A stretch of DNA of 43,973 bases from Chitinophagaceae bacterium. Its GTDB lineage: Bacteria; Bacteroidota; Bacteroidia; Chitinophagales; Chitinophagaceae. The stretch lies in assembly GCA_025450235.1 (NCBI GenBank), contig JANWHX010000328.1, positions 1-43,973 on the forward strand, read 5' to 3'. The position numbers and the translations under genes were made by a program. The notes beneath the pieces are model-generated. The model was given only the letters and a program-made list of their open reading frames with translations, did no database searches and was not told the DNA's origin. Of this stretch, positions 39,034 to 43,973 are shown in pieces (positions within the stretch are counted from its first letter, which is position 1; each line of letters starts with the position of its first letter).

Positions 39034-40416
39034 ATGACTACAAAAACAATCTCCAAATCATCAGACTCCGAGACCCCCCCTTCGGGGGCCAGGGGGGCCG
39101 TGATTCAAAACAACCAGGACTACACCTTATTTTCATGGAGCAAACAAAAAGGTACGAATCCTATTGCCGTCAAGTATGCCGAAGGTGTTTATCTATACGA
39201 TTTCGATGGTAAACGGTACATTGATTTTTCTTCGGGTCTGATGAACGTAAATATAGGTCATGGCGATCAGCGGGTGACAGCAGCCGTTGTAAAGCAAATG
39301 CAGGAGGTGACGTATGTAACTCCTTCCTGTGTTACAAAAGTTCGTGGTGAGTTAGGAAAGAAGTTAGCTGAAATATGTCCTGGTGATCTGAATAAAGCAT
39401 TTTTTACTTTATGCGGCGCAACTTCAATCGAAAATGGGATCAAGCTGGCAAGGTTGTATACGGGGCGGCATAAGATAGTAACCCGTTATCAATCTTATCA
39501 TGGCGCATCTATTGGCGCTATTTCAGCTAGCGGCGATCCAAGAAGAATTCCCGTTGATGTCCAACAGGCGCCCAATTTTGTTCATTTTGATCTTCCTTAT
39601 TTATATCGCTGGGAGTATGGTGAAGAAAATCTATTGAAAGAAACAATTGCATCGTTGGAAAGATTGATCGCTTACGAAGGGGCTGCTACTATTGCCGCTA
39701 TTTTACTGGAAGGTGAATCGGGTTCATCAGGCTGTTTGAAATATCCGGTGGGCTATTTGAAAGCCGTTAGAGAATTATGTAACAAGCATGGCATTTTATT
39801 AATCATTGACGAAGTGATGAGTGGTTTTGGGCGAACAGGGAAATGGTTTGGATTTGAACACCACGATATCATTCCCGACATGATCTGTATGGCCAAGGGT
39901 TTGACTTCAGGTTATCTTCCTTTTGGTTGCCTGATGGTATCAGATAAGATCGCCGCAAAGTATGATGATGCTGTTCTTGCGTTGGGTCTCACTTACTCTG
40001 CTCACCCTGTCAGTTGCGCGGCGGCACTCGAAATGCTGAAGATCTATGAAGATGATAATTTAATTGCGAATGCAGCGGCGATGGGAAAATATATGGAAGC
40101 ACAGGTTGAAAAATTAAAACAAAAACATAATAGCATTGGTGATTTCAGGAATACGGGTTTATTGGGTTGTATTGAATTAGTAAAAAACAAAACAACCAAA
40201 GAACCTCTGGCACCCTTCAATGCAAAACCGGAAGAGATGGCGGTAATGAATAAAGTAGCGGCAAAGATCAAAGAACTGGGAATGTACACGTTTGTAAGAT
40301 GGAGTTATATTTTTGTTGCCCCACCCCTGATCGTAACAAAAGAGCAAATTGACGAAGGCCTGGCGATCATCAGCGAAGCCATTTCAATAGCTGATACACA
40401 AATCGAACACGGATGA
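39034..40416 (+). CDS. Class III PLP aminotransferase (aspartate aminotransferase family; probably omega-amino/beta-alanine type)
   Basis: LYDFDGKRYIDFSSGLMNVNIGH, ILLIIDEVMSGFGRTGKWFGFEH, MAKGLTSGYLPFG (PLP Lys). Confidence 0.92.
   Translation: MTTKTISKSSDSETPPSGARGAVIQNNQDYTLFSWSKQKGTNPIAVKYAEGVYLYDFDGKRYIDFSSGLMNVNIGHGDQRVTAAVVKQMQEVTYVTPSCVTKVRGELGKKLAEICPGDLNKAFFTLCGATSIENGIKLARLYTGRHKIVTRYQSYHGASIGAISASGDPRRIPVDVQQAPNFVHFDLPYLYRWEYGEENLLKETIASLERLIAYEGAATIAAILLEGESGSSGCLKYPVGYLKAVRELCNKHGILLIIDEVMSGFGRTGKWFGFEHHDIIPDMICMAKGLTSGYLPFGCLMVSDKIAAKYDDAVLALGLTYSAHPVSCAAALEMLKIYEDDNLIANAAAMGKYMEAQVEKLKQKHNSIGDFRNTGLLGCIELVKNKTTKEPLAPFNAKPEEMAVMNKVAAKIKELGMYTFVRWSYIFVAPPLIVTKEQIDEGLAIISEAISIADTQIEHG
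39062..39099. repeat. 38-bp repeat copy C inside the aminotransferase N-terminal coding region
   Basis: CAGACTCCGAGACCCCCCCTTCGGGGGCCAGGGGGGCC; encodes SDSETPPSGARGA. Confidence 0.8.
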
Positions 40417-40951
40417 CACGGATTAAACTGATGTTCACGGATTTATTTTTCGCAAATTCATTTTACAGTATTAGTTCAAAATATGAAATATCAGGAACTG
40501 ACGGACCACATAATCAAAGCGTTTTACAAGGTATATAATACTCTGGGCTAAGGCTTTCTGGAAAAAGTTTACGAAAATGCCATGTATATTGAACTAACTA
40601 ATATGGGATTTAAAGTTGAGAGGCAAAAGAGAGTTCTTGTCTATTATGAAGGTCATGTTGTTGGCGATTATTCGTCCGACCTAACCGTTGAAGATGTTGT
40701 TATTTGCGAATTAAAAACTACTGAATCATTAATAACAGACAACGAATACCAACTGATTAATTATTTAAAAGCGACTACTATTGAAGTTGGCCTCCTGTTG
40801 AATTTTGGAAAAAAACCAGAAATAAGAAGAAAAATATATGATAATGATAAAAAGGCGTGGTACACAACCCGGATAACGCCTATTTAAGGTATGACTCATC
40901 TATGACTAAAAAAATCCTTGTTAATCCATTTAGTCCGTGTCATACGTGTTC
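40405..40951 (+). mobile_element. Candidate CACGGAT-type inverted-repeat element carrying a GxxExxY gene
   Basis: Left arm GAACACGGATGACACGGATTAAACTGATGTTCACGGATT; right arm reverse complement GAACACGTATGACACGGACTAAATGGATTAACAAGGATT; encloses the GxxExxY ORF. Confidence 0.7.
40483..40887 (+). pseudogene. GxxExxY-family (PD-(D/E)XK-like) protein with in-frame TAA at codon 23
   Basis: MKYQELTDHIIKAFYKVYNTLG*GFLEKVYENAMYIELTNMGFKVERQKRVLVYYEGHVVGDYSSDLTVEDVVICELKTTESL...; stop at 40549-40551; same frame throughout. Confidence 0.88.
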
Positions 40952-40960
40952 CAAAAAATT

Positions 40961-42457
40961 ATGAGCGAAAACAGAAACATACCGGATTCTTCGTTAATTA
41001 ATCAGGACCTCGCTCCGATTCGGCAGGAAAAAAGAAAATGGGGGACATGGAACTATGCTGCACTTTGGATCAGTATGAGTCTTTGCATTCCTTCCTACCA
41101 GTTAGCAAGTGGAATGATTGATAATGGAATGAATTGGTGGCAGGCGATCATGACTATGCTTATCGGGAATTTGATCGTACTCGTTCCAATGATATTAAAT
41201 GGACATGCAGGAGCTAAATATGGTATCCCTTTCCCGGTGTTTGTCAGGGCAAGCTTTGGAACAAAAGGTGCCAATATACCAGCTATGCTAAGAGCTATCG
41301 TGGCTTGTGGCTGGTTTGGGATTCAAACCTGGATAGGTGGCAAATCATTATATCGTTTATTAAAAGTATGGGATCCTTCCTTGCCTGAGCTCACCATCAA
41401 CGGCCTCTTCCCCGATCTCTTACCTCTCATTTGCTTTTTATGTTTCTGGCTGTTGAACATGTATGTTATTTACCGGGGTGTCGATAGCATAAAAAAATTA
41501 CTGGTCTTTAAGGCATTCTTTCTTCCGGTTGCAACGGTGGCCTTATTGTGCTGGGCATTTTGGGTCATGCAGGACCGTGGTGGCATCGCGCAGGTATTCG
41601 ATGTGCCCTCAAAGTTTAAAGACTCCGCTTCTTTTTATAATTATTTTGTACCGGCGCTGACAGGGGTCGTGGGGTTTTGGGCGACTCTATCACTTAATAT
41701 CCCCGATTTTACCCGGTATGCAGTGAGTCAAAAATCGCAACGCAGAGGACAAGCATTAGGATTACCCACTTCAATGACGTTTATCGCTTTTGTTGCGGTA
41801 GTAGTTTCATTGACGACAACCTTTGTTTTTGAAAAAACAATTTGGGAACCCGAAGCGCTGGTTGGCAGGTTTGACAATAAGATCATTGTAAGCTTTGCCC
41901 TGATCGCTGTGGTTATCGCAACACTTGCCACAAATATTGCAGCTAATATCGTAAGTCCTGCCAATGATTTCTCTAACCTTTCACCGAAGAAGATCAACTT
42001 CAGAACAGGAGGCTATATTACGGGCATCATCGGCATATTGATATTTCCATGGAAGCTCGTTGAAGATCCTACCGGTTATATTTATAGCTGGCTGGTCGGC
42101 TATTCGGCATTGCTGGGTCCTGTGGGAGGTATTATGATCGCAGATTATTATTTTATCAGGAAACAGAAATTAGAAACGGCTGAATTGTATAGTCACGCAG
42201 GCCGGTACCGTTACAGGAACGGATTCAATAGAAATGCAATAATTGCTTTGCTTCTGGGAATATTACCAAACATACCGGGGTTCTTATTACAGGTTAAAGT
42301 TGTTTCACCAGATGCTTTTCCCGGCTGGATCTCAAATTTATATCACTACGCCTGGTTTGTAGGTTTTTTTGTAAGCGCCATTCTTTATATCTTACTAATG
42401 CGTTCATACAGGATAACTGAACAAAAATTAAAAGAATCTTATGTCGTTGTTGATTAA
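40961..42457 (+). CDS. NCS1-family nucleobase/hydantoin permease
   Basis: RKWGTWNYAALWISMSLCIPSYQLASGMIDNGMNWWQAIMTMLIGNLIVLVPMILNGHAGAKYGIPFPVFVRASFG typical of NCS1. Confidence 0.93.
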   Translation: MSENRNIPDSSLINQDLAPIRQEKRKWGTWNYAALWISMSLCIPSYQLASGMIDNGMNWWQAIMTMLIGNLIVLVPMILNGHAGAKYGIPFPVFVRASFGTKGANIPAMLRAIVACGWFGIQTWIGGKSLYRLLKVWDPSLPELTINGLFPDLLPLICFLCFWLLNMYVIYRGVDSIKKLLVFKAFFLPVATVALLCWAFWVMQDRGGIAQVFDVPSKFKDSASFYNYFVPALTGVVGFWATLSLNIPDFTRYAVSQKSQRRGQALGLPTSMTFIAFVAVVVSLTTTFVFEKTIWEPEALVGRFDNKIIVSFALIAVVIATLATNIAANIVSPANDFSNLSPKKINFRTGGYITGIIGILIFPWKLVEDPTGYIYSWLVGYSALLGPVGGIMIADYYFIRKQKLETAELYSHAGRYRYRNGFNRNAIIALLLGILPNIPGFLLQVKVVSPDAFPGWISNLYHYAWFVGFFVSAILYILLMRSYRITEQKLKESYVVVD

Positions 42458-43823
42458 AAATGGAAGGATCATTACTGCCTCTGATGACTATGTCGCCGAC
42501 ATATTTGCCGAGGGCGAAACAATAAGGGCTATTGGCAGAAATCTGAAGCTGGAGGCCGACAAGGAAATCGATGCTGCCGGTAAATTGGTTTTTCCCGGTG
42601 GTATTGATCCGCATGTGCATCTCGATATGCCTTTTATGGGAACTTATTCCAGCGATAGCTATGAGACAGGAACAAGAGCGGCCCTTTTTGGCGGAACAAC
42701 GATGGTAATTGATTTTATCTTACAAAAACAAGGGAGTCCCTTGCGATCAGCATTGGCCGAATGGAAAAAAAGAAGTGATAACAACTGTGTAGGCGATTAT
42801 AGCTTTCATATGGCTGTAACTGATTTTAATGATGTAACTAAACGGGAAATAAAGGATTTCATAGAAATCGAAGGCATTACTTCTTTCAAAACATTCATGG
42901 CCTACAAGGGGGCATTGATGATTGACGACAGGCAGATGATCGGGCTGATGGAAGAAGTGAAAAAATGCGGCGGCCTGATCAATGTACACGCGACGAATGG
43001 CGATATGATTGATTATCTCATTGCCAAGCACCGCGGAGAAGGTAAACTGTCTCCCTTGTATCACTATTTATCACAACCTGAAATAACAGAAGCGGAAGCA
43101 GCAGAGAGGTTTACAGATATGAGTTTCTATACTGGCTGTCCCGGCTATATTGTTCACCTGACTTGCGAAGGAGCATTAAATGCGGTGCGCAACGCGACAA
43201 GGAGAAATCAAAAAGTTTTTGTAGAAACATGTATTCAATATCTAATACTTGATGCATCCTTATATGAGAAGGATTTCGACGGGGCGAAATGGGTGATGAG
43301 CCCTCCACTCAGGGAAAAGAAAGACCAGGAAACGTTATGGGCCGGGATCAACCAGGGATTGGTCCAGGTAGTTGCCACAGATCATTGTCCTTTTAAGTGG
43401 GAGCAAAAATTATTGGGTAAAAATGATTTTGCCAGGATACCCAATGGGCACCCCGCGATCGAGAACCGGATGGAACTTTTGTTCACCGAGGGTGTTAATA
43501 AGGGAAGAATTACTCTTAACAAATATGTCGAAGTAGCGTGTACAAATGCAGCCAAAATCTTTGGGATGTTCCCAAGAAAAGGAACGATCGCCGTGGGAAG
43601 TGATGCAGATATAGTAATTTTTGATCCAAAAGAAAAGCATACCGTTTCTGCAAAGACCCATCATATGAATGTCGATTATTCGGGATATGAAGGATGGGAA
43701 CTGACAGGCAAAGTAAAAACAGTTGTTCTCAGGGGAAAAGTAGCGATAGATAATAATCAGTGTTTGATCAAGAAAGGATACGGACAATTTATTAAACGGA
43801 ATAAAGTCAGTAACAAAATATGA
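42441..43823 (+). CDS. hydA: Dihydropyrimidinase (hydantoinase)
   Basis: FPGGIDPHVHLDMPFMG, ITSFKTFMAYKGALMIDD (carboxy-Lys), VVATDHCPFKWEQKLLGKNDFARIPNGHPAIENRMELLF. Confidence 0.95.
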   Translation: MSLLIKNGRIITASDDYVADIFAEGETIRAIGRNLKLEADKEIDAAGKLVFPGGIDPHVHLDMPFMGTYSSDSYETGTRAALFGGTTMVIDFILQKQGSPLRSALAEWKKRSDNNCVGDYSFHMAVTDFNDVTKREIKDFIEIEGITSFKTFMAYKGALMIDDRQMIGLMEEVKKCGGLINVHATNGDMIDYLIAKHRGEGKLSPLYHYLSQPEITEAEAAERFTDMSFYTGCPGYIVHLTCEGALNAVRNATRRNQKVFVETCIQYLILDASLYEKDFDGAKWVMSPPLREKKDQETLWAGINQGLVQVVATDHCPFKWEQKLLGKNDFARIPNGHPAIENRMELLFTEGVNKGRITLNKYVEVACTNAAKIFGMFPRKGTIAVGSDADIVIFDPKEKHTVSAKTHHMNVDYSGYEGWELTGKVKTVVLRGKVAIDNNQCLIKKGYGQFIKRNKVSNKI

Positions 43824-43831
43824 AAAGAAGG

Positions 43832-43909
43832 GAACACGGATAACACAGATGAAACGGATCCTCGCTGATCAATCCGTGTAAATCCGTCCAACCCGTGTCA
43901 TCCGTGTTC
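43832..43909. repeat. 78-bp solo CACGGAT-type inverted repeat (MITE-like hairpin)
   Basis: GAACACGGATAACACAGATGAAACGGATCC...AATCCGTCCAACCCGTGTCATCCGTGTTC; arms reverse-complementary and match the arms of 40405..40951. Confidence 0.88.
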
Positions 43910-43929: not shown

Positions 43930-43973
43930 ATGCCCAGAAAAATTAAATCAGGACTCATTCAAATGTCTCTGCC
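43930..43973 (+). CDS. Start of a nitrilase-superfamily gene (beta-ureidopropionase-like), truncated by window end
   Basis: MPRKIKSGLIQMSL... typical nitrilase-family N-terminus; position after dihydropyrimidinase. Confidence 0.6.
   Translation, partial: MPRKIKSGLIQMSL

Follow-up and report, generated by a model that had tools for sequence, protein, structure and literature searches.

The hairpin of 78 bp at positions 43,832–43,909 of the DNA analyzed here (a stretch of 43,973 nucleotides from a Chitinophagaceae bacterium, termed the window) belongs to a family of small mobile hairpins in DNA that is widespread and whose fuller copies carry a gene encoding a GxxExxY protein. It is very probable that this solo hairpin and a GxxExxY cassette within the same window are the gene-less and gene-bearing forms of a single mobile family. 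The hairpin flavor is matched to the type of protein, and we favor, with some reservation, the simplest reading of this association, in which GxxExxY recognizes its own units and mobilizes both the solo and the cassette forms.

A solo hairpin within a row of genes

The hairpin, a gene-less element of GAT flavor to which no strand is assigned, starts 8 bp past the stop codon of a dihydropyrimidinase gene (42,441–43,823, + strand) and ends approximately 20 bp before a nitrilase-type gene (43,930–43,973, + strand) that has the same start as its orthologues and is cut by the end of the window. This neighborhood is an operon-like row of genes. The coordinates and the neighbors are exactly as the initial annotation had given them, and there is no open reading frame (ORF) inside. 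The description as near-perfect was too strong, since the arms of 28 nt are only 79% complementary. Read from the sequence, the left array (43,832–43,869, + strand) comprises the units CACGGAT (43,835–43,841), CACAGAT (43,844–43,850), AACGGAT (43,853–43,859) and CGCTGAT (43,863–43,869). The inverted right array (43,872–43,909, − strand) contains exact units at 43,872–43,878 and 43,900–43,906 and imperfect ones at 43,882–43,888 and 43,891–43,897. There are four 7 bp units of the CRCNRAT type in each arm, some of them imperfect, with a spacing of 9–10 bp on the left arm, and the arms pair mainly at the CACGGAT-type units rather than in the spacers.

A chance palindrome is ruled out by further copies in the genome and by shuffling tests. 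None of 200 dinucleotide shuffles folds as well as the hairpin, either as DNA (z = −4.0) or as RNA (z = −5.3). The hairpin is matched by R1, a covariance model of the GAT hairpin, with E = 7.8e-17, the window hairpin having been included in building the model. Within the same draft genome (3.55 Mb, 64.5% complete) there are 28 further BLAST matches, corresponding to about 20 sites, down to E = 1e-13. These form two groups, solo copies in ordinary intergenic gaps like that of the window, and copies lying inside a larger MITE with the outer ends GGTAGTGTCC/GGACACTACC (loci L005–L011 and L015–L017). About half of the copies in this genome have probably spread inside this larger, unrelated GGTAGTGTCC-ended MITE, and their number is therefore no measure of GxxExxY activity.

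A cassette with the same arms

No inverted repeat anywhere in the window is stronger than that of a GxxExxY cassette at 40,405–40,951 (+ strand), composed of a left arm (40,405–40,448, + strand), a right arm (40,908–40,951, − strand) and, between them, a GxxExxY / PDDEXK_3 pseudogene (40,483–40,887, + strand) of what we term the window-like subfamily. Each arm contains four CRCNRAT-type units, as in the solo hairpin. Alignment of hairpin with cassette gives 79% identity over 38 nt for the left arms and 75% over 51 nt for the right arms, which bears out the earlier claim of matching arms 2.9 kb apart. That the gene is a pseudogene had gone unmentioned; it is interrupted by an in-frame TAA (40,549–40,551), and the catalytic D...ExK is still present. 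The draft of the window's own genome, only 64.5% complete, yielded no intact window-like gene. A third GxxExxY copy in this genome (L023, G000:C116) has a downstream arm of CACATAG type, a flavor outside the counting motif that we used. The left arm of the window cassette contains the TGA stop codon (40,414–40,416) of the upstream aminotransferase gene; at 40,405–40,416 it ends that ORF, adding element-derived residues at the C terminus, and the same is seen in genomes G299 and G302.

The cassette protein belongs to the family TIGR04256 GxxExxY / PF13366 PDDEXK_3. The gene fragment in the window reaches a profile score of 83.7 bits (cut-off 35), and the orthologue in G302 reaches 132 bits (cut-off 22). 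D67 and E77 are invariant among 73 sequences and K79 is nearly so, and the structure model (pLDDT 94.9) is a confident PD-(D/E)XK fold, so that both the fold and the catalytic D, E and K of the family are present. The best Foldseek matches are mostly PD-(D/E)XK nucleases (Cas4-like and lambda-exonuclease-like), none with an E value below 1e-3, and no solved structure of a relative was found by sequence. By family, residues and model, the GxxExxY protein is a single-domain PD-(D/E)XK nuclease. A role in defense or in phage was considered and rejected, as the window-like protein has no match in PADLOC or PHROG, the LGPG-type protein described below has only weak Cas4/RecE-like matches in the same comparison, and no match was found in phage records.

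The family is common and multicopy. TIGR04256 is present in 152 of 297 genomes of the phylum Bacteroidota, about half, with up to 12 matches per genome, and we have found no role assigned to it. Only two open-access papers name GxxExxY, and one of these gives it a passing mention with neither a function nor a link to a hairpin. The longer arm motifs are absent from open-access papers and the shorter ones look like chance or primer matches; there may be an earlier description elsewhere. The class-4 multicopy repeats of Geobacter were rejected as the same repeat, being CCYTC-based and different in sequence.

GxxExxY genes lie between inverted arrays in many phyla

For 80 GxxExxY genes, taken from named genomes in ten or more phyla, the 200 bp upstream were aligned with the reverse complement of the 200 bp downstream, in place of a motif scan with three exact units, which misses most arms. 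Inverted arms scoring 13 or more were found at 61 of 78 usable loci and in 2 of 78 local control windows; with a second control set the result was 43 of 57 loci against 0 of 114 controls. Each arm consists of CRCNRAG or CRCNRAT units in an array, separated by short spacers. In the complete genome G236 we also scanned 800 kb blindly for inverted repeats, and all those scoring 20 or more enclose or adjoin GxxExxY, S23 (four-helix bundle) or DUF559 genes, the latter two being named from translated ORFs. Complete hairpins stand on both sides of a GxxExxY gene in G186, and in tandem in G076. At the G076 locus (L347, G076:95440-96830) the gene lies between tandem hairpin arrays, and each hairpin has a CTGCCCGTATCAGGCGGG insert.

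Comparing the two arms of one cassette, 0.88 of the unit positions are identical and 0.61 of the spacer positions, both values being inflated because the arms were picked by alignment score. On the gene-sense RNA, G-U pairs are not preferred among the mismatches between the arms (85 vs 86). The greater conservation of units than of spacers, together with the lack of a G-U preference, favors recognition of the units as DNA over an RNA stem. The two arms of a cassette still match above composition, which is compatible with formation of a hairpin in the DNA.

Arm flavor follows protein subfamily

The window gene belongs to a subfamily distinct from the common LGPGLLES type. Among cassettes with LGPG-type proteins, 95 have GAG/AAG units, 4 have GAT units and 10 could not be called, and those with window-like proteins have GAT units in 24 cases and GAG units in none, with 3 uncallable. 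The association of arm type with subfamily is strong (p about 1e-21; GAG/AAG in 95/99 callable LGPG-type cassettes, GAT in 24/24 callable window-like ones). On the protein tree the arm flavor needs a single change, a result that mainly restates the subfamily split because few forks are resolved. The coupling of arm to protein could be plain co-inheritance.

Solo hairpins occur mainly in genomes with GxxExxY

We examined 297 genomes, one per species of the phylum, with stratification by taxonomic family only. The subfamilies were divided for these counts at a gap in E values that was picked by eye before the cross-tables, R1 was scored on at most 15 candidates per genome, and the solo models and patterns capture only part of each flavor. 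The covariance-model search that the initial annotation had proposed was performed with R1, which matches 74 of 297 genomes. GxxExxY is present in 67 of these 74 genomes and in 85 of the other 223 (odds ratio 15.5, p = 3e-16). Divided by subfamily, R1 matches 36 of 49 genomes with a window-like gene, 31 of 103 with other GxxExxY genes only, and 7 of 145 with none, and the effect of the window-like subfamily persists on stratification by family (odds ratio 5.2, p = 7e-4). A stricter GAT pattern, applied to the GxxExxY-positive genomes, goes in the same direction as R1 (18/49 vs 16/103) but is not significant when stratified (p = 0.13). A GAG-type solo pattern occurs in 71 genomes, 65 of which have GxxExxY (odds ratio 17), and its reversed control pattern is nearly absent. 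These GAG solos have no association with the window-like subfamily (22/49 vs 43/103, p = 0.73). That hairpin type tracks nuclease type across genomes suggests, short of proof, that the hairpins are moved by the nuclease.

Hairpin-rich genomes lacking the gene, which the initial annotation had held would count against the pairing, do exist and are few. In the 7 R1-positive genomes without GxxExxY, a deeper profile search with E values up to 1 found no such gene either. Two of the 7, G137 and G172, and a case of the GAG type, G156 (99% complete), have several hairpins each and no detected GxxExxY gene. These genomes fit loss of the gene, yet they weaken a strict dependence. Overall, the proposal of a coding and a gene-less element of one family is well supported, by the shared arms, the occurrence of gene-less hairpins mainly in GxxExxY genomes, and the matching of flavors.

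In many genomes the GAT solos share a standard build, about 78–81 nt long (a length that the model favors), four units to each arm and a short loop between, and in some (G047 and G000) solos outnumber cassettes. Of 42 solos, none is inside a gene; the flanking genes are co-directional for 29, convergent for 10, divergent for 1 and of unassigned orientation for 2.

Orthologous junctions are filled, empty or differently occupied

At the dihydropyrimidinase–nitrilase junction of relatives we find the same GAT hairpin in G301, GAG/AAG hairpins in G299, G317 and G326, S23 cassettes in G298, G302 and G033, and other repeat structures in G300 and G254. Most of the more distant relatives have gaps of 1–64 bp there with no recognized element. 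In G301 (L229) two GAT hairpins occupy this junction, and the flanking gene ends are partly duplicated between them, which suggests recombination at the hairpins. The aminotransferase–permease junction, where the window cassette lies, is filled by a GxxExxY cassette in two relatives, with a frameshifted gene in G299 and an open one in G302. G317 has an S23-type solo hairpin there, and in G254, G341, G308 and G329 the gap measures 2–30 bp. Genomes G100, G054 and G026 of a different genus contain a GxxExxY cassette that is interrupted in G163 and has decayed by internal loss in G038; the congeneric empty site in G175, G069 and G065 has the stop codon followed by, or overlapping, the next start within 0–3 bp. 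The empty or differently filled orthologous junctions, together with this clean empty site, indicate that the elements insert. No target-site duplication was evident at the 42 solos or at the filled and empty junctions, where the spacers are short and diverged and could hide one of 1–3 bp.

A possible mechanism, and the alternatives

The data establish the identity of the family, the coupling of arm to protein, the flavor-specific association, insertion relative to empty sites, and the conservation of the catalytic residues. We infer that GxxExxY binds and cleaves the elements and brings about their re-insertion. A full copy comprises one single-domain PD-(D/E)XK gene between inverted arrays of the 7 bp unit CRCNRAK; a solo copy, which would be non-autonomous, retains just the arrays, which form a single hairpin about 79 bp long. 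Most likely the nuclease recognizes an array of units of its own flavor and makes a cut at the array or close to it. Re-insertion, of a hairpin in trans or of a cassette in cis, would then follow in permissive intergenic gaps, often right after a stop codon, and without evident target duplication. Against this explanation stand the 7 of 74 R1-positive genomes that lack GxxExxY and the lack of an intact window-like gene in the window's own draft. No mobile element known to us relies on a PD-(D/E)XK protein of a single domain, acting alone, as its transposase. If the nuclease does mobilize the hairpins, transposition here would depend on an enzyme that is not known as a solo transposase, and a large class of unannotated intergenic repeats would be explained. 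The flavor-matched hairpins provide GxxExxY with a candidate substrate and a place in genome evolution.

The main rival holds that the hairpins spread by other means (template switching in replication or repair, recombination between copies, or riding within MITEs) and that GxxExxY is a passenger or regulator in a safe intergenic slot. We think this rather unlikely, but the S23 cassettes and the genomes without the gene keep it alive. It accords with the several copies in the window's own genome lying within the larger MITE, with unrelated hairpin families at the same junction in relatives, and with analogous arms around S23 and DUF559 genes. It does not predict that solo flavor should track protein subfamily across genomes, nor that units should be better conserved than spacers between the arms.

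It is quite improbable that the hairpin functions in RNA, as an operon mRNA stabilizer, a processing site, a REP-like terminator, or a stem cut by RNase III like that of an intervening sequence. The stable RNA fold would be consistent with such a role, as would the placement of most solos between co-directional genes and the S23 genes known from 23S rRNA intervening sequences, which have complementary stems at their borders (PMC4990558). But the mismatches of the cassette arms lack a G-U preference, there is no Rfam match, and no intrinsic terminator (a GC-rich stem followed by a run of T) was found at the hairpin. Since the junction is empty or differently filled in relatives, there is no conserved regulatory role there, and the avoidance of divergent (promoter) gaps fits tolerance equally well as function. 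Finally, that the solo is an immobile remnant of a cassette that has lost its gene is most improbable, because random deletions would not yield this uniform length and set of four units across many genomes, and solos outnumber cassettes in some, even though decaying cassettes exist (the window pseudogene, the frameshift in G299 and the internal loss in G038).

Comparison with known elements

The nucleases that may mobilize these hairpins are best compared with RAYTs, and by analogy REPIN/RAYT appears the closest known system, with an unrelated enzyme. The systems share many-copy short intergenic hairpins formed by inverted short repeats, one cognate gene with those repeats on either side, and co-diversification of repeat and protein (PMC3116915). 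Hairpins lie beside GxxExxY in G186 and G076 as REPINs cluster beside RAYTs. They differ in that the enzyme here is PD-(D/E)XK (PF13366) and not an HUH/Y1 tyrosine transposase, so that it is not a RAYT; the arms are arrays of 3–5 degenerate 7 bp units; the gene is often inside the hairpin; and GxxExxY is multicopy, whereas each RAYT is single-copy (PMC3116915). Elements mobilized by an IS as MITEs are similarly gene-less, have the ends of a gene-bearing relative and are present in many copies. Here the ends are shared, but the parent has no recognized transposase and no DDE enzyme, there is no clear target duplication, and the whole element is one hairpin. The initial comparison with IS/MITE or TnpA-REP/REP pairs holds for the pairing of gene-less and gene-bearing elements with common ends, and fails for the enzyme.

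S23 genes occur inside 23S rRNA intervening sequences, with complementary stems at the borders (PMC4990558). These resemble the present elements in having a small ORF in a stem of complementary arms, a sporadic distribution and frequent decay of the gene. By contrast, the elements here lie between protein genes, as at the dihydropyrimidinase–nitrilase site, the protein is unrelated, and the signature of RNA pairing was not found.

Other cassettes in the same gaps

Inverted arms of other sequence flank S23 genes at 16 of 30 loci and short DUF559 genes at 15 of 19, and none of the controls. Outside rRNA, the S23 genes (TIGR02436) have inverted arms of short tandem units, of CTAAG, TTAGC and GAATATC types (L055–L084; L197, L201 and L203; G236:1243514-1244009), some of them at the junction of the window hairpin in relatives. 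Around the short, Vsr-like DUF559 genes the arms are inverted copies of a palindrome, CCCCTCC..GGAGGGG, that has a tail of GGGGTGGGT type (L362–L388; G236:1061035-1061523), at the same 15 of 19 loci and in 0 of 38 controls. To our knowledge S23 is no known nuclease, and as it occupies the same kind of cassette, a nuclease is not essential to the general architecture. We suggest tentatively, and with the balance slightly against it, that these elements form a separate class, in which a lone PD-(D/E)XK nuclease of about 120 residues acts in cis and in trans to mobilize hairpins of its own units, and that convergent families of hairpin cassette, at least three in number (GxxExxY, S23 and DUF559), compete for the same intergenic gaps.

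GxxExxY genes are also found on plasmids of Fusobacteria, Treponema, Gemmatirosa and Bacteroides (matches H1–H8), a possible route between phyla, and GAACACGGATNACACGGAT is present in ten putative viral IMG/VR contigs (L337–L346).
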